From positions 124,001 to 188,000 of the forward strand of contig NZ_AOIP01000016.1 of the NCBI RefSeq assembly GCF_000337535.1: a stretch of 64,000 nucleotides of DNA. Direction: 5' to 3'. The stretch is from Natrialba aegyptia DSM 13077. Lineage in GTDB: Archaea > Halobacteriota > Halobacteria > Halobacteriales > Natrialbaceae. The notes under the pieces are model-generated. The model was not told where the DNA came from. It did no database searches and worked only from the letters and a program-made list of their open reading frames with translations. The position numbers and the translations under genes were made by a program. Of the stretch, positions 11,377 to 64,000 are shown one piece after another (within the stretch, counting starts at the first letter, position 1; the number at the start of each line of letters is the position of its first letter).

Positions 11377-12384
11377 ATGGCGTCATACGAGGAACGAGTC
11401 ATCCGACTGGTCGCCAACCCGGACAACCGCGCGATTCTGACGATTCTCGACGACGCATCCCGACGGCTCTCCGTGGCATCGCTCGCCGACCGACTCGTTT
11501 CTCGCGACGCAGCCGTCGTCGACGCAACAACCTACGACCGCCGTCTCGACTCCACGCGCCTGTCCCTGCACCACGCCCGCTTACCCCGCCTCGCCGACGC
11601 TGAACTCGTCGCGTACGACCCCGAGGAGAACGTCGTTTCCACCCGAGACCACGCCATCATCGACCCCGAATGGCTCGAGTTCACTCTCCTCGACGAGTTC
11701 CTCTCGCGATTTGGCGGCAAGCGTGGCCCCGATACGATCGGCATACTCGAGACTCAGGCGGCGATCTACGACTACAGCCGCGAACTGGCGGACAAAGCCG
11801 ACGATGAACTCTTCATCATCTATACGTCCGCCGACCTGCTCGATGAGGGCTGTCTTCCGCACACGACGCGGGCGGTCGAGCGCGGGGTGGACTTTTATGC
11901 CGGGTCGCAGAATCACGAGGTCAGGCGGTTCTTCCGGAATAACGTTCCGGAAACGACCATCTGGGAGCCACAGCTAGACTGGATGAACGAGCCATCGCGG
12001 TATCCACGCCTCAATCGTCTCATCGTGGCCGATCGCGACAAGGTACTGCTATCCCTGCAAGAGGAGCCACCGGTCGATAGCGCGGCGACGGCAACTGAAA
12101 CGGAGCCCGGGATCGAAGCCGCGGCTGAGACTGAAACCGAAACCGAAACTGAAACTGAAACTGAAACTGAAACTGAAACTGAAACTGAGACTGAAACTGA
12201 GACTGAAACCACGACCAACACAAAAAGCGGGGACGAGACCACCGAACTCACCGAAACCGCAATGATCGGCGAGGGGGCAACCAATCCGCTCGTCGTCCTC
12301 GTCCGGGAACTGCTCGGACCACGCCTCGACCACCTCGATTATCAGAGCGACCACTTCACGGGCGAACTTCCATTCGAACCATGA
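11377..12384 (+). CDS. Winged-helix regulator (DUF7344-like) with Glu-Thr repeat
   Basis: A 335-residue haloarchaeal protein. Residues 1-100 look like a winged-helix domain (VANPDNRAILTILDD, LSLHHARLPRLADAEL). Residues about 130-220 form a second alpha/beta domain (DELFIIYTSADLLDEG; TIWEPQLDW) like the sensor part of some haloarchaeal regulators. A spacer of 14 Glu-Thr pairs follows, coded by a GAAACT-type microsatellite, then a conserved tail. Its stop overlaps the start of the HalOD1 gene (ATGA), so the two probably act together. The target is unknown. Confidence 0.8.
   Translation: MASYEERVIRLVANPDNRAILTILDDASRRLSVASLADRLVSRDAAVVDATTYDRRLDSTRLSLHHARLPRLADAELVAYDPEENVVSTRDHAIIDPEWLEFTLLDEFLSRFGGKRGPDTIGILETQAAIYDYSRELADKADDELFIIYTSADLLDEGCLPHTTRAVERGVDFYAGSQNHEVRRFFRNNVPETTIWEPQLDWMNEPSRYPRLNRLIVADRDKVLLSLQEEPPVDSAATATETEPGIEAAAETETETETETETETETETETETETETETTTNTKSGDETTELTETAMIGEGATNPLVVLVRELLGPRLDHLDYQSDHFTGELPFEP
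12127..12210. repeat. Hexamer microsatellite coding (Glu-Thr)14
   Basis: Fourteen uninterrupted in-frame hexamers, mostly GAAACT with GAGACT and GAAACC variants, code Glu-Thr pairs inside the winged-helix gene. Copy-number changes would keep the reading frame, so the length of the acidic linker can vary without loss of the protein. Confidence 0.95.
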
Positions 12385-50162: not shown

Positions 50163-52745
50163 TCAATCCTGCGCCGCTGTTGAAATCGGTCCCTGTCCCT
50201 GATCGCGGGCCGCCATTGCCGTCTGTGACTGCGACGTCCACTCGAGGTCGCCCCGATAGTGGAACGCCTCGTTATCGCGCTCCGGATCGATGACGGTCAG
50301 GTCGCCGACCCAGCCGTTGTCGACCAGCCGTTTGACGTCCTCGTGGTGACGGAGGATGTCGGTCACACGCTCACGGGGTGCGTGGATGACCGCTGTCAGG
50401 CGGAGCGGCTGGTGGTACGGCTCGTCGTCGGAGCACTGCAGCGACTGGAGCGGGAGACCGGTCATCAGATCGCCGCCGTTACCCTGCACGACGCCGACGT
50501 TACCGAGCGGGTTCTGCGTGATCTTCGAACCGCTGCCGTAGACGCCGTTGTCCACCGTCGCGAAGTAGTACTGGTTGTTGATCCACTGGGTGACGACCAG
50601 CGGGCCGGTCATGATGGCCTCCAGTGCCTCGCCCTCGGGATCGGTCGTCCAGTCGTAGGAGTGGAGGAACGCGCGGCCGTCTAAGCTCTCATCGTCGGTC
50701 AACTCGCGCGGGCCGATGACGAACGAGGCGTTGCCGGCCAGCCCCCACTCGGGGCGGGTTTCCGCCCAGTCGGCGGCCTTGCGCTCGACTTCGGCGACGG
50801 CCTCCTCGGGGTTGACGTCGGTCTCGTCGGTCATCGACTCGAGGCGCTCGGCCGCCGCGCCGGCCTGTGCGCGCTCGAGGTCGGCGCGAAGCTGCTCGAG
50901 GTCCTCGCGGTGGCTCTCTGGGACGGCGTCGTCGAACAGGTCGATCTCGTCGGTCGTCGTGTTGTGCTCGCCCGCGAGGAAGACCGTGTCGTCGGGGATC
51001 TGGAAGCCGCGCTCGCGGAGTTCCGCCTGCACGTCCGGATCGTTGCAGATTTCGGCGAGCACGCGTGCGTTCGGGCCGCCGGGGTTACCGGCGCAGGCCC
51101 CGCAGTCGAGGCTCGAGTCAAACGGATTATTCGTCGTCTCGCTCGCGTGGCCGGTGAAGACGACCAGGCGGGCGAACTCCGTCCAGCCCATGAGCGCGAA
51201 AGCGTTCTGGGCGTACTCGACTTTCTCCTCGAGGGTCATCCCCTGCGGAAGGTCGTGGTCGGCGTGACTGTGATCGTCGTGGTCGTCGTAATCGAGGACG
51301 GGCGAACAGAACTCGTGCTGGCTCGGGACGCGTTCCTCGACAGCGTTCTCGAGCGAGGCGATCGCCGAGGGGGCGAGCGTCCGGGCGGCCATCGCCGAGC
51401 CGTACGCGGCGCCGCCGCCTTCGACGAACGGGAAGGCGGCGACGACGTTGGCCTTGAGCCGCTTGAAGTGTTTCCGGGTCGCCCTCGCGAGGCCGGTCCA
51501 GCGGTCGCGTTTCGTCGCCGTCTCTTCGTCGTCGGGCCGGTCGACCACGCGGTGCTCGGGGTCGACGATCGGCGGACACGCGTCGACGGCGGCGGTCGCG
51601 TCGTAGCCGCGGTAGCGCATCGGGACGCCGAAGAAGCCGGCGTAGCCGTGGGTCTCGTAGCGGCCCTGCCCCTCGATGTAACGGCGGATGATCTCCGAGC
51701 GCGTGTCGATGCAAAACACCAGTTGGGCGGCCGGCCGCGACGACTCGCCCGCGTCGGCGGGATCGGTCACCGAACCGTCGAGTTGCTCGAGCAAGTGCTC
51801 GCGATAACTTTTCTCCCAGGCGGTCAGCCAACGTTCGGGGAGCGGGGGCGTCTCGTCTTCACCCTCGCTCTCGTCGCCAGCATCGGCGCCGCGCTCGTCG
51901 TCGCTCGAGGGCTCGATCGGCGCGTCCAGCAACTCCGCGAGCGTCAGCCGCACCGCGAGGTACTCGTGCAGCGTGATCGGATACGTCGATTGCCAGGGGT
52001 CGGTGTCGTCGTCGACGCGCTGTTTGATGAACCCGGTCCAGCCCGGCAGCGCGGCAAAGTGGTGCTCGGCGATGTCGATCCACCGGCCTTCGGGATGCTC
52101 GTCGAGGACCGACTCGAGCGCCTCGGTCGCCGTCTCGGGGAGGTCCGACGAGTCGTCGCAGCCGGGTACGTCGCCGTCGTAGGGGACCATCGAACGCCAG
52201 GCGGCGTAGAACCCCTCCTCGCGGTTCGGCATCGGCCACTTGGCCTGCCCTTCGTCGAGGAAGGCGGCGAGCCACTTCGAGAGCACGCGGTCAAGGATCT
52301 CAGTCGCCTCGTCGGACTCAGTGTCGGCGTCGCGCGCCGCTTCGGCCGCGGCCATCTCTTCGAGGAGGGCCTCGGGATCACGATCGATCCCGTGAGCCTC
52401 GAGTTCACCGGCGAGCACGTCGGGGTCGATCTGGCCGCGCTCCCAGGCCGTGCGAAAGATGTCGGGGTGCGGATACCCCCGTCCGCCGAACAGGCGCTCG
52501 CCGTCGGCGACGGCTCGGTGGAACGGCTGGTCCTCGAACCCCGAAAGAGGGTTGGCCGTGACGAACGAATACAGCGGCCAGACGGCCCCGACCCGCTCGA
52601 CCGCGCGCTCGATCGTCGTGGCGATGGGGTCCTGATCGGCGTCGGGGCGGGTCCCGTGGTGATCCGCCGCCTGATCGGATTGCTGTAGCGCCTGTTCGGC
52701 TCGGGCGTCGCCTTCGAGTTCGGATTGGGCAGGCTGCTTAGACAT
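50163..52745 (-). CDS. dabA: Inorganic carbon transporter subunit DabA
   Basis: An 860-residue DUF2309 protein. The beta-carbonic-anhydrase-like zinc site is complete: C345 and D347 (VFCIDTRS), H533 (FTGHASETTN) and C548 (SSLDCGACAG), with the H-to-C spacing of 15 found in characterised DabA. It works with DabB at the membrane to hydrate CO2 and trap bicarbonate using ion-motive force. Acidic inserts (SDDERGADAGDESEGEDE near 283; a His/Asp stretch near 485) look like halophilic or species-specific additions. It overlaps dabB by 8 bp. Confidence 0.93.
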   Translation of the reverse strand: MSKQPAQSELEGDARAEQALQQSDQAADHHGTRPDADQDPIATTIERAVERVGAVWPLYSFVTANPLSGFEDQPFHRAVADGERLFGGRGYPHPDIFRTAWERGQIDPDVLAGELEAHGIDRDPEALLEEMAAAEAARDADTESDEATEILDRVLSKWLAAFLDEGQAKWPMPNREEGFYAAWRSMVPYDGDVPGCDDSSDLPETATEALESVLDEHPEGRWIDIAEHHFAALPGWTGFIKQRVDDDTDPWQSTYPITLHEYLAVRLTLAELLDAPIEPSSDDERGADAGDESEGEDETPPLPERWLTAWEKSYREHLLEQLDGSVTDPADAGESSRPAAQLVFCIDTRSEIIRRYIEGQGRYETHGYAGFFGVPMRYRGYDATAAVDACPPIVDPEHRVVDRPDDEETATKRDRWTGLARATRKHFKRLKANVVAAFPFVEGGGAAYGSAMAARTLAPSAIASLENAVEERVPSQHEFCSPVLDYDDHDDHSHADHDLPQGMTLEEKVEYAQNAFALMGWTEFARLVVFTGHASETTNNPFDSSLDCGACAGNPGGPNARVLAEICNDPDVQAELRERGFQIPDDTVFLAGEHNTTTDEIDLFDDAVPESHREDLEQLRADLERAQAGAAAERLESMTDETDVNPEEAVAEVERKAADWAETRPEWGLAGNASFVIGPRELTDDESLDGRAFLHSYDWTTDPEGEALEAIMTGPLVVTQWINNQYYFATVDNGVYGSGSKITQNPLGNVGVVQGNGGDLMTGLPLQSLQCSDDEPYHQPLRLTAVIHAPRERVTDILRHHEDVKRLVDNGWVGDLTVIDPERDNEAFHYRGDLEWTSQSQTAMAARDQGQGPISTAAQD

Positions 52746-54237
52746 CGTTGTACTCCTCCTTGGTCGTGAGCACGGTCGCGGAATCCGGCTGCGAGAGGTT
52801 CAACAGCGAGACGTAGAGACGTTCGCTCGAGCGGTGCCACCCGAGTTCAGTCGCGAGGTAGGCCCCGACGAACAGGGCGACGACGAGGCCGTGGGCGATC
52901 GTCACGTCGGTCGGCGCGTGGGTCATCGCGGAGGGGACCACCGCCGAGATCGCGTTGTACAGCAGCGCGTAGCCGCCGATCGCGGTAAGGACGACCAGCG
53001 GGACGCTGACGAACCGCAGCGTCCGCGGCAGGGTCGTCCGGTTGAGGATGTCCCGCGCCGCGGTCAGCGTCGTCAGGACCACCACGAGCGTCAGGATCGT
53101 CCCGCTGTCAAACGCCAGGCCCGTCGCCTTCCCGGTGAGGGTGCCGAAGAGCACGCCGCCGCCGACGGCCGTGGCGAGGCTGACGGCGGCGCTCGCGAAG
53201 CCGAACTCGGTGTGGCCGGCGTGTTTGGCCGTCGATGCGGGCGCGGCCTCCTCGACGGCGGCTCCCGACGAGAGGAAGAGGTAGGCCTTGTAGAAGCCGT
53301 GAAGGATCAGGTGGGCGATCGCGGCCGCGAAGAAGCCGAGGCCGCACTGGAGGATCATAAAGCCCATCTGGGCCATCGTCGAGCCGCCGAGCTTGCGCTT
53401 GACGTTCGTCTGGACGAGCAACATCGCCTGTCCCAGCAGGGCGCTGACCGCGCCGAGGACGACGACGGCCGACATGATCGCGAGGTGGTCGGAAACCAGC
53501 GGCGCGAAGCGGGTCAACAGGACGCCGCCCGCGTTGACGAAGCCGGCGTGCATCAGCGCAGAAGCCGGCGTCGGAGCCGTCATCGACGACAGCAGCCACC
53601 CGTGGAACGGGAACAGTGCCGACTGGATCAGCGCCGCGAGGACGATCCCGCCGGCGGCGACGAGGCCGACCGTCGCGGAAACCTCTTCGAGGCCGCCGAG
53701 GATACCGGCGATCGATGTCGTTCCCGTCTCCCAGGCCAGCAGCGCCAGACTGCCGGCGAGTACCGCGCTGCTGGCGACGAAGTAGCGACGCGCAAGCGAA
53801 CCGGCGGCCTGCGCCTGCTCCCAGTCGCGGACGTGTCCGATGAGGCCGGCCATCAGCAGCCCCATCGCGAGCCACGCCGCCGAGAACAGCGCGACGTGAT
53901 CAGCCGCGGTTAGCGTCATCACGACGATCGTGAATCCGAGCACGCGGGCGAAAAAGCGCTCGAGGTCGCGGTCGCCCGCCATGTAGCGCCGGGAGTAGCT
54001 GTGGACGATGCCGCTGAAGAAGGTGACCACGATCCACAGCACCGCGGTCAGGCCGTCGACGACCACGTAGTCGACGCCGGTCCACGGCTCGCCGCGGTTG
54101 ACCGTCAGCGCGAGGACGCCGACGCTACAGAGAAACAGCGCCCACACCAGCCGCGTCGACGCCCGGGGGACGACCGAATCGTCCGTCGTCGTCAGTTCCG
54201 AGAGTTGTACGGCGTCGATCGAGCGTTCGTCGGTCAT
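52738..54237 (-). CDS. dabB: Inorganic carbon transporter subunit DabB
   Basis: A 499-residue multi-helix protein of the NuoL/MrpA proton-channel family. Conserved stretches include LFPFHGWLLSSMTAPTPASALMHAGFVNAGG near 210 and KRKLGGSTMAQMGFMILQCG near 281 (key Lys and Glu/His sites are in helices here). The gene ends inside the dabA start, which identifies it as the energising partner and not a complex I part. It may be expressed from a TATA box at 54321-54330. Confidence 0.93.
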   Translation of the reverse strand: MTDERSIDAVQLSELTTTDDSVVPRASTRLVWALFLCSVGVLALTVNRGEPWTGVDYVVVDGLTAVLWIVVTFFSGIVHSYSRRYMAGDRDLERFFARVLGFTIVVMTLTAADHVALFSAAWLAMGLLMAGLIGHVRDWEQAQAAGSLARRYFVASSAVLAGSLALLAWETGTTSIAGILGGLEEVSATVGLVAAGGIVLAALIQSALFPFHGWLLSSMTAPTPASALMHAGFVNAGGVLLTRFAPLVSDHLAIMSAVVVLGAVSALLGQAMLLVQTNVKRKLGGSTMAQMGFMILQCGLGFFAAAIAHLILHGFYKAYLFLSSGAAVEEAAPASTAKHAGHTEFGFASAAVSLATAVGGGVLFGTLTGKATGLAFDSGTILTLVVVLTTLTAARDILNRTTLPRTLRFVSVPLVVLTAIGGYALLYNAISAVVPSAMTHAPTDVTIAHGLVVALFVGAYLATELGWHRSSERLYVSLLNLSQPDSATVLTTKEEYNDV

Positions 54238-54542: not shown

Positions 54543-55007
54543 TCACTCCGCGGAGAACTCGTCGAACGAGGTCGACTCGTGGCTGCGCACGAGCACCTCG
54601 TCGGTAATCGTCAGACCCATGTCCGAAATCTCCTGCGCGATCGGCGTGATGTCCCGATCGTTCTTGACGACGGCCGTTACGAGGAGGTTCTCCTCGCCCG
54701 TTACCAGTTCCTGCACCGAGACGACGCCGGGAATGTCCAGAGTGTCGTCGATGTAGTCGCCTCGGTCCGGAATCGGCGCCGTACAGAAGAGGAGCATCCG
54801 GATCGGATACCCGGATTTCATGTAATCGATGTTGGCGCTGTACCCCTTGATGACCCCCTCCGACTCGAGGCGCTGGATGCGCTTGCGGACCGTACTCGAG
54901 GACGCGTCGGTCCGTTCGGCGATCTCGCCGGACGAAAGGTTCCGGGCCTCCTCCTGGAGCGCGTAGAGGATCTCCCGGTCGACCGCGTCGAGCTCGTACT
55001 CGGACAT
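54543..55007 (-). CDS. Lrp/AsnC family transcriptional regulator
   Basis: A 154-residue regulator. The N-terminal HTH reads LDAVDREILYALQEEARN then RTDASSSTVRKRIQRLESEGVI; the C-terminal RAM/AsnC domain (LLFCTAPIPDRGDY; GVVSVQELVTGEENLLVTAV) would bind a small effector. It is the gene just upstream of dabBA on the same strand and is a candidate regulator of inorganic carbon uptake. The start at 55007 has a box A 26 bp upstream. Confidence 0.92.
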   Translation of the reverse strand: MSEYELDAVDREILYALQEEARNLSSGEIAERTDASSSTVRKRIQRLESEGVIKGYSANIDYMKSGYPIRMLLFCTAPIPDRGDYIDDTLDIPGVVSVQELVTGEENLLVTAVVKNDRDITPIAQEISDMGLTITDEVLVRSHESTSFDEFSAE

Positions 55008-56102: not shown

Positions 56103-56672
56103 ATGGCGAACCAGTACATTACCGCCGACGAGCACCTGCCAGAGACGGGAACAGACGAGACCGTAACGCATCTCCAGATCCGGGATCCGGAGACGAAAGA
56201 GATCTTCGAGGCGCGAGTTCACGTCGCGAGGGAGTCGGATCGGCTCGACGACCCGGAGCCGCTGTCGGTCGTCAGAGGGCCGCACGAGAACACGACCGAG
56301 CAGTGGTACGTCGAGTTCGTCGACGAGGCGGTCGAGACGGAGCGACTCGAGCGACTCGCCGACGAGCAGCGCGAGCGTTCGAACGTGGTCAACACACGGT
56401 CCGACGATCTGACGGTTCTGTTGCGGTATCTCGTCGAGACCGGCCGCTACGAGTCGACATCGGCGGCCGTCAGAGCGATCTTGTTCGAGCACCTCGCCGA
56501 CCGCGATCCGGCGGTGCTCGAAGCCTACGACGAGATCCGGACGGCTTACGACGCGGATCCGTTGCGGGAGGCGCTCGCGGATGCGAACCATAGCAACGCC
56601 GGCACAGACGACGAGCCCGCCGTCGTGGTGACGGAGCAGGAGACGGAAACCGACCGATCCGGGGCCAGATGA
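56103..56672 (+). CDS. Unknown protein, first gene of the UbiD operon
   Basis: A 189-residue acidic soluble protein with no family I recognise. The N-terminal part is beta-rich (THLQIRDPETKEIFEARVHVA), and a Glu/Arg-rich helix follows near 80-95. Residues 98-135 (VNTRSDDLTVLLRYLVETG, YESTSAAVRAILFEHLAD) resemble a ribbon-helix-helix-like DNA-binding unit. The C-terminus is disordered (DDEPAVVVTEQETETD). Its stop overlaps the UbiD start by 4 bp (ATGA), so it is probably a partner or local regulator of the two UbiD proteins. Confidence 0.7.
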   Translation: MANQYITADEHLPETGTDETVTHLQIRDPETKEIFEARVHVARESDRLDDPEPLSVVRGPHENTTEQWYVEFVDEAVETERLERLADEQRERSNVVNTRSDDLTVLLRYLVETGRYESTSAAVRAILFEHLADRDPAVLEAYDEIRTAYDADPLREALADANHSNAGTDDEPAVVVTEQETETDRSGAR

Positions 56673-58240
56673 CCGCCGAGACGTTTCGGGACTTTCTGGG
56701 GCTGCTCGCCGACGTCGGCGCAACGAACGAGATCACGACGCCGGTCTCGTGGGATCTCGAGGCGAGCGCGATTACGATGCGGGCGAACGCCACCGACGAG
56801 CGGATTCCGGTCTTCGAAACCGTCGAGTTCGACGGCGCGGACGCCCGCCTCATCGGCGACCCGTATCGAGGGCCGCGCGGGCGCGTCTTCGAGCACCTCG
56901 CGCGGGCGTTCGAACTGCCCGATCCGGCGGGACTATCGGGGCCGGCGTACTACGAACGGGTGATCGATCGACTGGCGAACCAGCGCGATCCGATCATCGT
57001 CGATTCGACGACGGCCCCCTGTAAGGAGGTCGTCCGAACCGGCTCGGCGGCCGACCTGCTCGAGTTTCCCTGGCCGTACATCCACCGGCAAGACGGCGGT
57101 CGGTACGCGACGCTAACGACGCTCGTCGCGCCCGATCAGGACGGCGAGTGGGGCCGGTGGTCGCGCCACCGCGCGATGATCCACGGCCGCTCGCAGGCGA
57201 GTCTGTTGTTTCTCGCCGGCGAACAGCTCCCGAATCGCTACTACTACGAGTTCGAGCGCCGCGGCGAGGCGATGCCGGTCGCGCTGACGGTCGGTGCGCC
57301 GCCGGCCGTAACGGCCGCAAGCGAGATGTGGATTCCAGTCGGCCGCCAGGAAGCGACGTTCGCCGGCGGCCTCCAGGAATCGCCGGTCGACCTCGTCCCC
57401 TGCGAGACGAACGACCTCCGCGTCCCGGCGTCGGCCGAACTCGTCATCGAGGGCCGCGTGCTTCCGGAGGAGCGCCTCGACGAGGGGCCGTTCGGCGACT
57501 ACTTCGGCTACGTCAACGGCCCGCGGCGATCGATGCCGGTCCTTGCGGTCGACGCGATCACCCACCGCGAGCGGCCGTCCCTTCCATTCTGCGTGGCCGG
57601 GTCGGGCGTCGGCGACGCCGAGAACTCGACGAGTTCGCTCCAGGTCGCAGCGGGCGGGCCGGACGCCACCCTCGGACTGCGTGCCGCGGGCTACGACGTA
57701 GCGATGGCCGCCCCCTGGCCGTTCACCGAGCGGACGGTCTGGGTGATCGCGACGGAGCGCCCTTACGCAGGCTACCTGCACGAACTCGCGAACTTCATCT
57801 TCACGACCTGGGGGATGCTCCACATCGACTTCTTCGTCTTCGTCGACGCCGGCGTCAACCCGCTGCACTCGCGCGCGGTGGTGGAAGCGCTTGCGCTGCA
57901 CGCCGATCCGGCGACGGACTTCCACCAGTTCGGCGTCGAGCGGATGCCGAAGGTGCCGCTGAACATCTACCAGACGCCCGACGAGAAGGGCAACGCGGCG
58001 GTCGGGACCTCGAAGTCGAAGACGGCGAAGGCGTACGTCGATGCGCTTTCGGACGGAGACCGACCGACGCGGGCGATCGGCGAGCGCGAGGACCGCGAGC
58101 GCGCCCGCGACCTGCTCTCGGCGGCCGGCGTCGACGGCGCGTTCGAGCCCCACTATGTGACCGACGCCGGCATCGACGCCGATACCGACACCAGAACCAA
58201 CACCAACACCGAGACCACGATCCACCGATCCAACCGATGA
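56669..58240 (+). CDS. UbiD family decarboxylase, catalytic type
   Basis: A 523-residue member of the prenyl-FMN-dependent UbiD family, which add or remove CO2 from unsaturated or aromatic acids. Seen are RHRAMIHGRSQASL near 166 (region of the cofactor Arg), SAELVIEG at 255 and EGPFGDYFGYVNG at 272 holding the catalytic Glu pair. The C-terminal 20 residues (DTDTRTNTNTETT) are low complexity. No UbiX (prFMN synthase) gene is in the window. The substrate is unknown. Confidence 0.9.
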   Translation: MTAETFRDFLGLLADVGATNEITTPVSWDLEASAITMRANATDERIPVFETVEFDGADARLIGDPYRGPRGRVFEHLARAFELPDPAGLSGPAYYERVIDRLANQRDPIIVDSTTAPCKEVVRTGSAADLLEFPWPYIHRQDGGRYATLTTLVAPDQDGEWGRWSRHRAMIHGRSQASLLFLAGEQLPNRYYYEFERRGEAMPVALTVGAPPAVTAASEMWIPVGRQEATFAGGLQESPVDLVPCETNDLRVPASAELVIEGRVLPEERLDEGPFGDYFGYVNGPRRSMPVLAVDAITHRERPSLPFCVAGSGVGDAENSTSSLQVAAGGPDATLGLRAAGYDVAMAAPWPFTERTVWVIATERPYAGYLHELANFIFTTWGMLHIDFFVFVDAGVNPLHSRAVVEALALHADPATDFHQFGVERMPKVPLNIYQTPDEKGNAAVGTSKSKTAKAYVDALSDGDRPTRAIGEREDRERARDLLSAAGVDGAFEPHYVTDAGIDADTDTRTNTNTETTIHRSNR

Positions 58241-59676
58241 CCGCCTTCCGGAATCACCTCGAGTTCCTCCGTCGAACCGACGACTGCTGCGCGCTCGACC
58301 GACCCGACGATCTCTCCCCGCAGGTCGTCGCCGCGGAGGCGCTTCGAGCCGGCGGTCCCGCGATCGAGTTGACGACCGATGGGCGAGCCGGCGTTGAACT
58401 CGCGAGCGGCGTCTACGGCGGTGTCGACCAGACGCGCGGTCGAACGCGGGGACAGCCCCGCAGCCGGTATCCCTGGACCCGCCTCGGGCTCGGCCTCGGA
58501 GTCGACCGCGATCCGGCGTACGTCGACGTGCTCGAGACCCTGCTCTCACTCGGCGAGCGACGGGCGGAACGCGACGTGACCTACGTCGAGCGCGCCGCCG
58601 CGGCGACTGAACTCGGCGTGCGGGAACTCGGCTTGCCGACGCCGCCGGACGAGGCCTGGCCCCGGTTCACGCTCGGCCTGCTCTCGATCGGCACCGATGC
58701 GGGATCGTACTGGGCACCGATCCACGGCGCGATCCTCGACGGACGGACGATCCGCGCTCGCGTTCCAGAGGCGATCGCCGCCCACGATCGGCTCTCGACG
58801 GGCGCGTCCGCCACGATCGCGCTCGGCGTCCCGTCGGAGGCGCTCGCGGCGGCGCACGTACTCGCGATCACCGACCGGCTCGCGACGCCGATCGAGGACC
58901 GCGGCGTCGGCGCGACGGTCCCGCTCATTCCCACCGCGGGCGGCGTCGTCCCGAGTTCAGCGGAGGTCGTCATCGAAACCAGCGTTGCGGACCGCCAGCC
59001 CGACACCCGGTCCGAGAAGCGCGAGTTCTGGGAGCGCCTGGTCCCGAGTACGACGCTGACGCTCGACGCCGAGGCCGTCTTCTCCCGCGAGGATGCCGTC
59101 GTGCCGTACACGCCGCTCGGAGCGGCGCTGTCGGACGATCTCCAGTTGGCGGCGCTTGCGCTGTCGGCGACGCTGTACGATCGGGTCAACAGCTACTGGG
59201 GCGTGTCACCGGTCGACTGGCTGTTGCTCCCGACGGAGGGACGGCTCGGGCTCTGCCTGGTCGCCTCGGAGATCCTCTACGCCGGCTTCGAGTGGCAACT
59301 GGCGAACCTGCTGTTTTCGCTGTCCGACTGCTTCGATAAGGTGATCGTCGTCGACACCGAAACCGGGCCGCGAAATCTCGGGCGAGTGCTCGGCGATAGC
59401 TGGGTCAAGGCCCACCCCTCGCGGGACTGGCTGTTCAGCGAGGCCGACGCCCCGGCCGCACGGCTGCCGGCCTACGGCCGGGACGGCGAGACGGGTGCGC
59501 GACTGTACGTCGACGCCACCTGGGACCCCCGTTGGAAGGACGAGTTCATCGCGCCGCGCGTGTCAGTTACCGACTCCTATCCGCCGGAGATTCGCGCGGC
59601 GGTTCGCGACTCATGGGCTGAACTCGGCTTCGAGTCCGACGGTGCGTTCGAAGAAGCGAACGACTCCGGGAGCTAG
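58237..59676 (+). CDS. Divergent UbiD-like protein
   Basis: A 479-residue relative of the preceding UbiD protein, starting at 58237 within its stop (ATGA). The fold blocks are kept: FTLGLLSIGTDAGSYWAPIHGAI near 140 and SSAEVVIETSV near 240. The segment that is EGPFG in active UbiD enzymes reads SEKREFWERL, so the catalytic Glu arrangement is not conserved. It may be a structural subunit of a hetero-oligomer or an enzyme with changed chemistry. The N-terminal 90 residues are short of the usual pattern. Confidence 0.8.
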   Translation: MTAFRNHLEFLRRTDDCCALDRPDDLSPQVVAAEALRAGGPAIELTTDGRAGVELASGVYGGVDQTRGRTRGQPRSRYPWTRLGLGLGVDRDPAYVDVLETLLSLGERRAERDVTYVERAAAATELGVRELGLPTPPDEAWPRFTLGLLSIGTDAGSYWAPIHGAILDGRTIRARVPEAIAAHDRLSTGASATIALGVPSEALAAAHVLAITDRLATPIEDRGVGATVPLIPTAGGVVPSSAEVVIETSVADRQPDTRSEKREFWERLVPSTTLTLDAEAVFSREDAVVPYTPLGAALSDDLQLAALALSATLYDRVNSYWGVSPVDWLLLPTEGRLGLCLVASEILYAGFEWQLANLLFSLSDCFDKVIVVDTETGPRNLGRVLGDSWVKAHPSRDWLFSEADAPAARLPAYGRDGETGARLYVDATWDPRWKDEFIAPRVSVTDSYPPEIRAAVRDSWAELGFESDGAFEEANDSGS

Positions 59677-59917: not shown

Positions 59918-61645
59918 ATGCCACCGGACCACAACCTGCCGGCCTACGACGAGACGCGCCAGGCGTTTTCGTGGGACGACGGTTACGAGGAAGCCGACTG
60001 GGACGCCCCGGAGCGGATAAATATCGCACACGAGGTCTGCGATCGCCACGCCGAAAACAAGGAGAAGGTGGCGCTCTACCAGGTCGGCGAGGACGGCGAG
60101 TTGACGACGCTTACCTTCTGGGAACTCGCCGAGCGAACCGACCGGTTCGCGAATCTCCTCGCTGAACTCGGAATCGAGCGCGGCGACCGGGTCTTCTCGT
60201 ATCTGCCGCGCGTTCCGGCTCACTACGTGGCGCTCGTCGGGACGCTCAAACGGGGTGCCGTCTTCGGCGGTGTCAACGAGCGGTTCGGGCCGGACGGCAT
60301 CGCCTACCGGCTCGACGACTGCGACGCGAAGGCGGTCATCACGACCGCCGACAACCGAGATACCGTCGAGGCCGCGCTCGAAGACGCGCCGTCGGTCGAG
60401 CACGTCATCGTCGTCAGCGACGACGGAACGGGGCTGCGCCGCGGCGACGTGAGCTACCACGCGGCCATGGAGCGAGCGAGCCGCGAGTACGAGACGGCCG
60501 AGACGAGCGGCGAGGACGACGCGCTGTTGTACTACACCAGCGGAACGACCGGACTGGCGAAGGGCGTCCTCCACAAGCACCGGTGGGTTGTCGGCGTCGC
60601 CACGACGCAGCGCTACGCCGCCGACCTCCAGCCGGGTGATTTGTACTGGTCAACGGGCGACCTCGGCTGGCTGACCGGCCCCATCAACACGCTCGGAGCC
60701 TGGTTCTGGGGCACCGCCCTGTTCACCTACGAGGGCGAGTTCGACCCCGAGACGTGGGCCGACCTGCTCGATACCTACCCGATCAGCGTCCTCTTCTCGG
60801 TGCCGACGGCCTACCGGATGCTCCGGGAGAACGAGAGCGTTCTCGAGGGAACTGCACTCGACCTGCGCCACGCGCTGTCGATCGGCGAACCGCTCTCGGC
60901 CGGCGTCGTCGAGTGGGGCGAGGAGACCCTCGGCGTCACCATCCACGACACCTACGGCCAGACCGAGACGGGGAACATGATCATCAACAACTACCCGACG
61001 ATGGAGGTCCGTCCGGGATCGATGGGCAAACCGCTGCCCGGCATCGAGGCGGACGTGGTCGATCCCGAAACCGGCGCGGTGCTCGACCCCGGCGAGACGG
61101 GCGAGATCGCCCAGCGCGGGGACTACCCCTGCTTCTTCGCCGAGTACTGGGAAAAGCCCGACAAGACGGCTGACTGCTTCGTCGACGACCCCGACGGCGG
61201 TGAACAGAGTGAAACGATGCGATCCTCGCCAGACGAAACGTCTGGCGGCGAGTGGTACCTCTCGGGCGACCTCGCGCACAAGGACGAGGACGGCTACTTC
61301 TGGTTCGAGGGGCGAGCGGACGACGTGATCCTCTCCTCGGGCTACCGCATCGGCCCCTTCGAGGTCGAGAGTTCACTCGGCGAACACGAGGCCGTCGCGG
61401 AGGCGGCCGTGGTCCCGAAGCCCCACCGCGAGCGCGGCAACATCGTGAAGGCGTACGTGGTGCCGGGCGGCGACGCGACGCCCTCGGAATCGCTCAAAGA
61501 CGAGATCACGGACCACGTCAAATCCGAACTCTCCGCCCACGAGTACCCCCGTGAGGTCGAGTTCCGCGAGGAGTTGCCAAAGACGGTGACGGGGAAGATT
61601 CGACGGACGGAGTTACAGGACGAGGCGGCGGCGGAGGCCGAATAG
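59918..61645 (+). CDS. Short/medium-chain acyl-CoA synthetase (Acs-like)
   Basis: A 575-residue adenylate-forming enzyme. The A3 loop is LLYYTSGTTGLAKG (near 208), followed by YWSTGDLGWLTG near 243, DTYGQTETG near 345, and the C-terminal lysine block ELPKTVTGKIRRTEL. This order fits the acetate/propionate/butyrate-CoA ligase group better than the fatty-acid ligases at the window start. An insert (GGEQSETMRSSPDETSGGE near 428) is unusual. It lies upstream of an acyl-CoA dehydrogenase and a carboxylase on the same strand. Confidence 0.92.
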   Translation: MPPDHNLPAYDETRQAFSWDDGYEEADWDAPERINIAHEVCDRHAENKEKVALYQVGEDGELTTLTFWELAERTDRFANLLAELGIERGDRVFSYLPRVPAHYVALVGTLKRGAVFGGVNERFGPDGIAYRLDDCDAKAVITTADNRDTVEAALEDAPSVEHVIVVSDDGTGLRRGDVSYHAAMERASREYETAETSGEDDALLYYTSGTTGLAKGVLHKHRWVVGVATTQRYAADLQPGDLYWSTGDLGWLTGPINTLGAWFWGTALFTYEGEFDPETWADLLDTYPISVLFSVPTAYRMLRENESVLEGTALDLRHALSIGEPLSAGVVEWGEETLGVTIHDTYGQTETGNMIINNYPTMEVRPGSMGKPLPGIEADVVDPETGAVLDPGETGEIAQRGDYPCFFAEYWEKPDKTADCFVDDPDGGEQSETMRSSPDETSGGEWYLSGDLAHKDEDGYFWFEGRADDVILSSGYRIGPFEVESSLGEHEAVAEAAVVPKPHRERGNIVKAYVVPGGDATPSESLKDEITDHVKSELSAHEYPREVEFREELPKTVTGKIRRTELQDEAAAEAE

Positions 61646-61786: not shown

Positions 61787-62953
61787 ATGAACTTCGAATC
61801 CACGCAGGAACGCGAGATGATCCGACAGACGGCGGCCGACGTCGCCGCCGAGTACGGACCCGAGCACTGGCGCGAGAAAGAACGAGCGGGCGAGTTCTCC
61901 GAAGCCTTCTGGGCTGAACTCGCGGACGCGGGCTTTCACGGCCTGTTGATCCCCGAGGAGTACGAGGGTGCTGGCATGGGGATGCAGGAAATGGGGCTGG
62001 CGATGGAGACCCTCTGCGCCGAGGGTTGTGGCATGGCCGGAACCTGGTACTTGGTCCTCACGGCGGGGATGGCCGCGGTCGGCATCCGCGAGTACGGCAC
62101 CGAGGCCCAGAAGGAGACCTACCTGCCGGACATCGCGAACGGGAAGCGAAACTTCTCGATCGGGATCACCGAGCCCGAGGCGGGGACGAACACGCTGAAC
62201 GTGGCAACGAAGGCCGAACGGGACGGCGACGAGTTCGTCCTCAACGGCCAGAAGGCCTGGATCACGTTCTCGGATCGCGCCGAGAACATGATCATCGTCA
62301 CGCGGACGACGCCCCGTGAGGAGGTCGACCGCGGGACGGACGGGATCAGCCTGTTCATCGTCGATATGGACGACCCGAACATCGACGTCTCGCCGATCGA
62401 GAAGCACGGGATCAACTACTCGAAGTCCTGTGAAGTCTTCTTAGAGAACGTCCGCGTCCCGGCCGAGAACATACTCGGCGACGAGGATGACGGCTGGTGG
62501 GTACTGGTCGACATGCTCAACCCCGAGCGGATCGGCTTCGCCGCGGCGGGGACGGGGATCGGCAAACTCGCCGCGAACACGGCGATCGAGTACGCTAACG
62601 AGCGCGAGGTGTTCGACGCGCCGATCGGCTCCCACCAGGGCGTCTCGTTCCCGATCACGAAGGCATACGCACAGATGGAGACCGCCGCGCTCATGCGCGA
62701 GAAGGCGGCCTGGCGCTACGACCAGGGCGAGGAGTGCGGCTACGAGACCAACGTCGCGAAGGCGACCGCGGTCGCAGCCGGAATCGAGGCCGTCAAGCAG
62801 TCCATGCAGGCCTTCGGCGGCTGGGGCTACGCCACGGAGTACGACGTCGAGCGCTGGTGGCGCGAGATCAATCTGACCCGACTCGCACCGGTCTCCCAGC
62901 AGATGGCGTACAATCACATCAGCCAGCAGCTCGGATTCCCGAAGTCCTACTGA
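61787..62953 (+). CDS. Acyl-CoA dehydrogenase
   Basis: A 388-residue FAD enzyme that oxidises acyl-CoA to enoyl-CoA. Signature segments are FSIGITEPEAGTN near 125, LNGQKAWITFSDRAENM near 152 and the C-terminal FGGWGYATEYDVERWWREI near 343. The catalytic Glu is probably in the E-x-D or nearby part of that last block. It is 9 bp before the carboxylase gene and belongs to the same transcription unit. Short-chain or branched substrates are likely from the neighbours. Confidence 0.94.
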   Translation: MNFESTQEREMIRQTAADVAAEYGPEHWREKERAGEFSEAFWAELADAGFHGLLIPEEYEGAGMGMQEMGLAMETLCAEGCGMAGTWYLVLTAGMAAVGIREYGTEAQKETYLPDIANGKRNFSIGITEPEAGTNTLNVATKAERDGDEFVLNGQKAWITFSDRAENMIIVTRTTPREEVDRGTDGISLFIVDMDDPNIDVSPIEKHGINYSKSCEVFLENVRVPAENILGDEDDGWWVLVDMLNPERIGFAAAGTGIGKLAANTAIEYANEREVFDAPIGSHQGVSFPITKAYAQMETAALMREKAAWRYDQGEECGYETNVAKATAVAAGIEAVKQSMQAFGGWGYATEYDVERWWREINLTRLAPVSQQMAYNHISQQLGFPKSY

Positions 62954-62962
62954 TCTACTAGC

Positions 62963-64000
62963 ATGTTCGACAAACTACTCGTTGCCAACCGCGGCGAAAT
63001 CGCCGTACGCGTCATGCAAGCGTGTGAAGAACTGGGAATCGACACCGTCGCGATCTACAGCGACGCGGACCGCAACGCGGGTCACGTCGAGTTCGCCGAC
63101 GAGGCGTACAACGTCGGCCCCGCGCCGGCGAGCGAATCGTACCTCGATCAGGAAACGATCCTCGAGACCGCCGACCGGGCGGGCGCGGATGCGATCCATC
63201 CCGGCTACGGCTTCCTCGCCGAAAACGCCGCGTTCGCCGCCCGCGCCGAGGACGCAGAAGGGATCACCTGGGTCGGCCCGCCGAGCGAAGCGATGGAAGC
63301 CCTCGGCGAGAAGACGACGGCCCGACGAGTCATGCAGGCGGCCGACGTGCCGGTCGTCCCCGGCACGAGCGATCCAGTCGACTCCGCCGCCGAAGTTCGC
63401 GAACTCGGCGACGAGTTCGGCTATCCGGTCGCGATCAAAGCTGCCGGAGGCGGCGGCGGTCGCGGGATGAAGATCGTCCGCAGCGCGGACGAAGCCGAAG
63501 ACGCCCTCGAGAGCGCGAAACGCGAGGGGGAAGCCTACTTCGACGACGCGACCGTCTACGTCGAGAAGTACCTCGAGTCCCCGAAGCACGTCGAGGTGCA
63601 GATTCTCGCGGACGAGCACGACACCGTGCTCCACCTCGGCGAGCGGGACTGCTCGCTCCAGCGGCGTCACCAGAAGGTCATCGAGGAAGCGCCGAGTCCC
63701 GCGCTCGATGCGTCGCTTCGCGAGTCGATCGGCGAGGCGGCCCGCCGCGGCGTCCGCGAAGCGGGCTACACGAACGCGGGTACCGTCGAGTTCCTCGTCG
63801 AAGACGGCGAGTTCTACTTCATGGAGGTCAACACCCGGATCCAGGTCGAACACACCGTCACCGAAGAGGTGACGGGGATCGATATCGTCCGGGAACAGTT
63901 GCGAATCGCGGCCGGCGAGGAACTCCCGTTCGCGCAGGAGGATGTTGCGATCGACGGCCACGCGATCGAGTTCAGAATCAACGCCGAGAATCCGGCCGCG
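62963..64000 (+). CDS. Biotin carboxylase subunit of acyl-CoA carboxylase, 3' end cut off
   Basis: The ATG at 62963 opens a frame that runs to the window edge for 346 codons ([16 protein letters not shown]). The ATP-grasp loop [14 protein letters not shown], the block [30 protein letters not shown] and the active-site [14 protein letters not shown] are complete. It carboxylates biotin with bicarbonate and ATP; with a carboxyltransferase it makes malonyl- or methylmalonyl-CoA. The C-terminal part, and any fused biotin-carrier domain, lies outside the window. Confidence 0.94.

Follow-up and report, generated by a model that had tools for sequence, protein, structure and literature searches.

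A conserved haloarchaeal gene trio encoding two UbiD-type proteins and its separation from UbiX

The layout of phenylphosphate carboxylase is of the alpha/beta type. This enzyme comprises two UbiD-like subunits and a small gamma subunit, and the carboxylases acting on polycyclic aromatic hydrocarbons (PAHs) comprise several UbiD-like subunits (PMC8379154, PMC12016498), naphthalene carboxylase being a multi-UbiD complex (PMC12016498). Small partner proteins are known for VdcC (PMC8379154) and for LpdC (PMC10865409). UbiX, the single flavin prenyltransferase associated with UbiD enzymes (PMC10865409), is described as an obligate requirement common to all of them (PMC8379154). In Fdc, an RXnEX4(E/D) network that includes R173 is required for catalysis (PMC5818171), and the manganese ligands of Fdc1 are N168, H191, E233, and K391 (PMC4947166). 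Here we describe three overlapping genes, A, B, and C (56103-59676, forward strand), in a 64,000-nucleotide stretch of the Natrialba aegyptia DSM 13077 genome (contig NZ_AOIP01000016.1, positions 124,001 to 188,000; hereafter the window), two of which encode UbiD-type proteins. The trio is conserved across haloarchaea, and in a sample of 392 genomes of the order it is never accompanied by UbiX.

Conservation of the trio and distribution of UbiX

Gene A (56103-56672, +) encodes a 189-amino-acid (aa) accessory protein; gene B (56669-58240, +) encodes a 523-aa member of the UbiD family, the putative catalytic subunit; and gene C (58237-59676, +) encodes a 479-aa diverged UbiD paralogue, a putative non-catalytic subunit. 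The A/B and B/C junctions are both ATGA, with 4-bp overlaps exactly as originally predicted, and the predicted coordinates of all three genes hold. An 842-aa open reading frame (ORF) at 57148-59676 is the frame of C extended upstream through B and nothing more.

The arrangement is not due to chance, since the order A-B-C is kept in 61 of 61 named haloarchaeal loci. Scanning GTDB 220, with each species represented by a single genome, yielded these loci and placed the trio exclusively in haloarchaea, in genera that include Natrialba, Natrinema, Natronorubrum, Haloarcula, Halorientalis, Haloferax, Halobellus, Halorubrum, and Haladaptatus, among others. Natrialba asiatica and N. taiwanensis have the closest named orthologues of C (95% identity), and the trio is present on 17 plasmid records, all haloarchaeal. 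At the 74 loci with clear starts, the B-to-C junction is a 4-bp overlap in 65, a 1-bp overlap in 7, and a spacing of +2 in 2, while the A-to-B junction is a 4-bp overlap in 31, with the remainder mostly between -1 and +4. The fixed order and coupled junctions bear out the prediction of a single operon, conserved across haloarchaea. (Gene calls for the neighbourhood tables were made with a simple codon-based caller and checked by homology.)

The three genes are also retained together at the level of genomes. In a family set of 125 genomes, C is present in 47 and A in 48 (one A match being marginal), and a UbiD domain adjoins C in all 47 C-bearing genomes. Thus B and C do not occur apart, and no genome of the set with C lacks A; neither the separation of the two UbiD genes in relatives nor the absence of the first gene elsewhere, either of which the original prediction had named as grounds for abandoning it, is observed. 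As a side observation, another haloarchaeal family includes five genomes whose match to C is split into two adjoining pieces, as if by an insertion or frameshift. In RefSeq, A carries the name "ubiD operon protein" on NZ_CP084473.1 (Natrinema sp. DC36) and NZ_CP019068.1 (Halorientalis sp. IM1011); the linkage of A to ubiD has therefore already been noticed by annotators. The literature searched contained nothing on a haloarchaeal UbiD system, on a "ubiD operon protein", or on UbiD-bearing genomes lacking UbiX, in line with the original view of the trio as an undescribed enzyme system.

The genomes that carry the trio are set apart by their lack of UbiX. In N. aegyptia itself no UbiX was found: the best match to TIGR00421 scores 14 bits and falls on a gene for a 416-aa CoaBC-type protein, the sole PF02441 match in that genome. 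In an order set of 392 sampled genomes, a UbiD domain is present in 116, the trio in 81, and UbiX over cut-off in 34 (five further weak trio matches are other UbiDs and lie outside the count of 81). UbiX is present in none of the 81 trio genomes vs 34 of the 35 UbiD-bearing genomes without the trio, and the single exception among the latter is 72% complete. Haloferax volcanii gave neither a UbiD match nor, at E<=0.001, a UbiX match. The original prediction had stated that no UbiX gene lies near the trio; the gene is absent both there and genome-wide, a stronger result than the one claimed. We considered whether the absence is an artefact of draft genomes and rejected this, since many near-complete or few-contig trio genomes lack UbiX and the same search detected it in 34 of the 35 others. 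Only one genome of the family set (G054) has both the trio and UbiX, and there two other UbiDs and UbiX lie close together. The split between trio and UbiX is the most surprising result of the analysis, because UbiX has been described as obligate for all UbiDs.

Sequence features of the three proteins

B is a UbiD protein that retains the catalytic network. It matches PF01977 (UbiD) at 211.2 bits (cut-off 23.3) and likewise exceeds the cut-offs for UbiD_N and UbiD_C, and its closest PDB matches are Fdc1 and PA0254 (E about 1e-44). We aligned 81 B orthologues with Fdc1 and with seven non-trio haloarchaeal UbiDs from UbiX-bearing genomes. Residues R168, E228, E272, D277, and K454 of B are invariant in 81 of 81 orthologues. 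Specifically, Arg168 (codon 57170-57172, +) is the equivalent of R173 of AnFdc1, and Glu272 and Asp277, in the EGPFGD motif (57482-57499, +), are the equivalents of E277 and E282. The equivalents of AnFdc1 E233 and K391 are kept in all 81. A first impression that the metal site of B is mostly lost, at both N168 and H191, had to be cut down: the H191 position is Gln in 81 of 81 B orthologues and varies among the comparators too, so that only N168 stands out.

C has diverged from this pattern. UbiD_C is the sole UbiD model matched (43.1 bits, cut-off 24.2), with no PF01977 match in the window copy, and alignment to B orthologues is weak over most of the length (about 20-24% identity, E 1e-6 to 1e-13). 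The EGPFG motif is absent, as originally noted, and the network is lost in C orthologues: the E277 position is a gap, the E282 position is mostly Arg, Lys, or Pro, and the R173 position is mixed. Judged by these residues, the proposal of a catalytic-looking UbiD encoded beside a non-catalytic one holds up.

The N-terminal domain of A is beta-rich and bears a conserved GPHE motif, whereas the C-terminal half is helical and ribbon-helix-helix (RHH)-like; the protein has no cysteines. In agreement with the description of the first gene as lacking a known family, A passes no Pfam or NCBIfam cut-off, the Pfam RHH models included. The RHH-like segment suspected at the outset has independent support. 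In particular, the half around GRYESTSAAVRAILFEHLAD (segment SNVVNTRS...GRYESTSAAVRAILFEHLAD, about residues 92-134; 56376-56504, +) gives hhalign values of 54-83% against six RHH sequences of the same genome, and in other archaea a hidden Markov model (HMM) of the A family matches RHH_1 proteins of 59 aa, with E about 1e-4 per genome. At five loci in other Halobacteriota, the RHH_1 proteins matched by this profile lie directly upstream of a frame that appears FtsZ-like by eye. The AlphaFold model of A has a predicted local distance difference test (pLDDT) score of 82 and a predicted template modelling (pTM) score of 0.50 (0.45 in another run), and, when compared for an LpdD-type fold or another structural relative, this low-pTM model gave no Foldseek match in the PDB at E<=0.001 and no VIA-align match at Z>=5.

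Genomic contexts, proposed role, and alternatives

The trio occurs in two contexts. In context 1, which is that of the window, A-B-C are followed by conserved genes for an adenosine monophosphate (AMP)-forming acyl-coenzyme A (CoA) ligase (59918-61645, +), which is the next gene after the trio, an acyl-CoA dehydrogenase (61787-62953, +), the biotin carboxylase/biotin carboxyl carrier protein subunit of an acyl-CoA carboxylase (62963-64000, +, extending beyond the end of the window), and the carboxyltransferase. A MaoC hydratase that is nearest to itaconyl-CoA hydratase usually completes the set, and on one Natrinema plasmid there is also a RipC-like CoA ester lyase. Where the operon ends in Natrialba, a cupin protein takes the place of the MaoC hydratase (L061:4672-5037, downstream of the window). 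In context 2, A-B-C are followed, often after a metallo-beta-lactamase (MBL)-fold hydrolase, by a diverged PaaA/B/C/D-like epoxidase set with a ferredoxin, and by crotonases (one PaaG-like), MaoC, an aryl/acyl-CoA ligase, an acyl-CoA dehydrogenase, a thiolase, and a 3-hydroxy-3-methylglutaryl (HMG)-CoA-synthase-like protein. The Paa-type set (L047:2122-5482, L134:14708-18068) scores 140 bits for PaaA vs a cut-off of 280, and a conserved GNAT protein adjoins its ferredoxin; it is likely to be a different haloarchaeal aryl- or cyclic-CoA epoxidase.

In a maximum-likelihood tree of B, the two contexts occupy separate regions. Context 1 forms one supported group, together with one copy from a genome with two B-C pairs (G084, discussed below), while Natrialbaceae and Haloferacaceae members are mixed within context 2, a topology that suggests transfer between families.

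We hold, with moderate confidence, that A-B-C encode a dedicated haloarchaeal UbiD-type decarboxylase or carboxylase, heteromeric, that opens CoA-dependent catabolic pathways with a cofactor that does not come from UbiX. B would be the catalytic subunit, with a UbiD cofactor pocket in which Arg168-Glu272-Asp277 would hold the substrate carboxylate and move a proton. C, as a non-catalytic paralogue, would probably pair with B in a structural or regulatory role. A would be an obligate small partner that probably serves as activator, chaperone, or cofactor supplier and has an RHH-type dimerising half. CO2 would be added to or removed from an unsaturated or aryl acid, and the neighbouring AMP-forming ligase would join the acid to CoA; the acyl-CoA would then be desaturated, carboxylated by the biotin enzyme, and hydrated in context 1, or attacked by the Paa-type epoxidase and beta-oxidation enzymes in context 2. 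Isobutene/3-methylcrotonate-like, cinnamate-like, phthalate-like, and phenol-like substrates were weighed; the neighbours decide for none of them, and none is claimed.

Because the trio genomes lack UbiX, the cofactor would not be prenylated flavin mononucleotide (prFMN) made by UbiX. We judge it fairly probable that the UbiD system is independent of UbiX, with B using another cofactor or a prenylated flavin made by a non-homologous enzyme; A would then be a candidate to carry out the missing cofactor step.

Several points weigh against this reading. The genomes are related, so that the Fisher p of about 1e-28 for the split between trio and UbiX overstates their independence. The position of the manganese ligand N168 is variable in B (D in 33 orthologues, R in 21, S in 13, H and T in 5 each, N and Q in 2 each), and 7 of the 8 comparators have Asn there; because this ligand is not conserved, cofactor binding in B may differ from that in Fdc1. 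In addition, G084 contains two B-C pairs, of which one has no A beside it and the other has a diverged A, and it carries another copy of A elsewhere (L039:7475-7972; L037, L038). Since A and one of the B-C pairs are separated in this genome, A need not be cotranslated with B and C and may act in trans.

The separation of A in G084 also favours the tentative possibility that A is an RHH-type DNA-binding autoregulator standing outside the enzyme, which would then consist of B and C only. The RHH-like half of A and its position as the first gene of the operon are consistent with such a role. Arguing the other way, crude tests found no shared word or dyad upstream of A above shuffles, the N-terminal domain and the RHH half of A are equally conserved, and A stays with B-C in both contexts, with translational coupling to B at many loci.

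It is rather unlikely that B is an ordinary prFMN enzyme whose cofactor comes from a flavin prenyltransferase unrelated to UbiX, with A a candidate for that activity or for a chaperone that partly replaces it. B keeps the R-E-E/D network and, in the cofactor site, the residues equivalent to E233 and K391, which would fit this, as would the absence of UbiX from all 81 trio genomes, the confinement of A to trio genomes, and the existence of small prFMN-binding partners of UbiDs, namely LpdD (PMC10865409) and PhdC (PMC13040415). However, A resembles no prenyltransferase or flavoprotein family in Pfam or NCBIfam, and its C-terminal half is RHH-like.

The same absence of UbiX could mean that the trio does not act as a (de)carboxylase and that the UbiD fold of B serves another reaction, for which UbiX would be dispensable. 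The variable N168 position in B and the loss of catalytic residues from C point in that direction; the R-E-D network that serves decarboxylation (PMC5818171) is nevertheless kept in 81 of 81 B orthologues, and the neighbouring genes activate and metabolise carboxylic acids, which makes this reading improbable. That the trio is a haloarchaeal enzyme of the phenylphosphate carboxylase type, carboxylating an activated aromatic, is very improbable: the layout is the same, the alpha family is the best NCBIfam match of C, and B matches both alpha and beta, but the scores (140.6 and 65.1 bits for B, 30.7 for C) fall far under the cut-offs of 564.6 and 468.95, the gamma family TIGR02725 has no match in the N. 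aegyptia genome at E<=10, A is unlike gamma, and context 1 holds no aromatic-ring enzyme.

Other features of the window include a DabA gene (PF10070, 896 bits) and its antiporter-like partner, an inorganic carbon transporter pair at 50163-54237 (-), divergently upstream of the trio and accompanied by an AsnC-type regulator at 54543-55007. By clustering, three genes of the DabA/regulator kind occupy the same place in Natrialba asiatica, N. taiwanensis, and N. chahannaoensis, and in no other genera. Some context-2 loci contain gamma-carbonic-anhydrase-like genes; these and the DabA pair of some Natrialba weakly fit the carboxylation direction. At a distance from the trio, a 335-aa ORF (11377-12384, +) contains a long Glu-Thr repeat tract (ETETET...), possibly variable in length.

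Comparison with known UbiD systems

If the proposed (de)carboxylase is correct, the rule that UbiX is obligate would be broken by a UbiD system that is widespread, keeps its catalytic network, and occurs without UbiX in all 81 sampled genomes. Trio genomes would then either draw on an unknown source of the cofactor or carry out UbiD chemistry of a different kind, and a new cofactor route is a serious possibility. Two unassigned catabolic pathways of haloarchaea would come to light as well, together with another kind of small protein that partners UbiD enzymes.

B is most similar to the Fdc1/PA0254 branch of PF01977, with which it shares the fold domains, the RXnEX4(E/D) network, and the cofactor-site Glu and Lys. 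The trio differs from that branch in the lack of UbiX, in the non-conservation of the manganese-ligand Asn, and in the constant association of B with C and A.

The original prediction regarded a UbiD pair with a small partner as outside the standard arrangements. This was too strong, because phenylphosphate carboxylase and the PAH carboxylases have multiple UbiD-like subunits. Phenylphosphate carboxylase (Ppc alpha, beta, gamma, delta) in particular resembles the trio in having two UbiD-like subunits and a small protein, followed by CoA chemistry. The trio differs in its scores below the family cut-offs, in the absence of the gamma family, and in operons for an acyl-CoA carboxylase or a Paa-type epoxidase; no delta phosphatase or phenylphosphate synthase was seen among the conserved neighbours, and no search aimed at either was made.

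VdcC/VdcD and LpdC/LpdD resemble the trio in combining a UbiD enzyme with a dedicated small partner for activation or cofactor handling. Both use UbiX, and VdcD is a zinc ribbon, whereas A is partly RHH-like and cannot be a VdcD zinc ribbon because it has no cysteines; B scores 138 bits against the VdcC model (cut-off 650). The naphthalene and benzene carboxylases resemble the trio in having several UbiD-like subunits encoded together and a product that is ligated to CoA, but they belong to anaerobic bacteria and are proposed to depend on prFMN. From phenylphosphate carboxylase, naphthalene carboxylase, VdcC, and LpdC alike, the trio is set apart by the absence of UbiX and by the fixed A-B-C unit.

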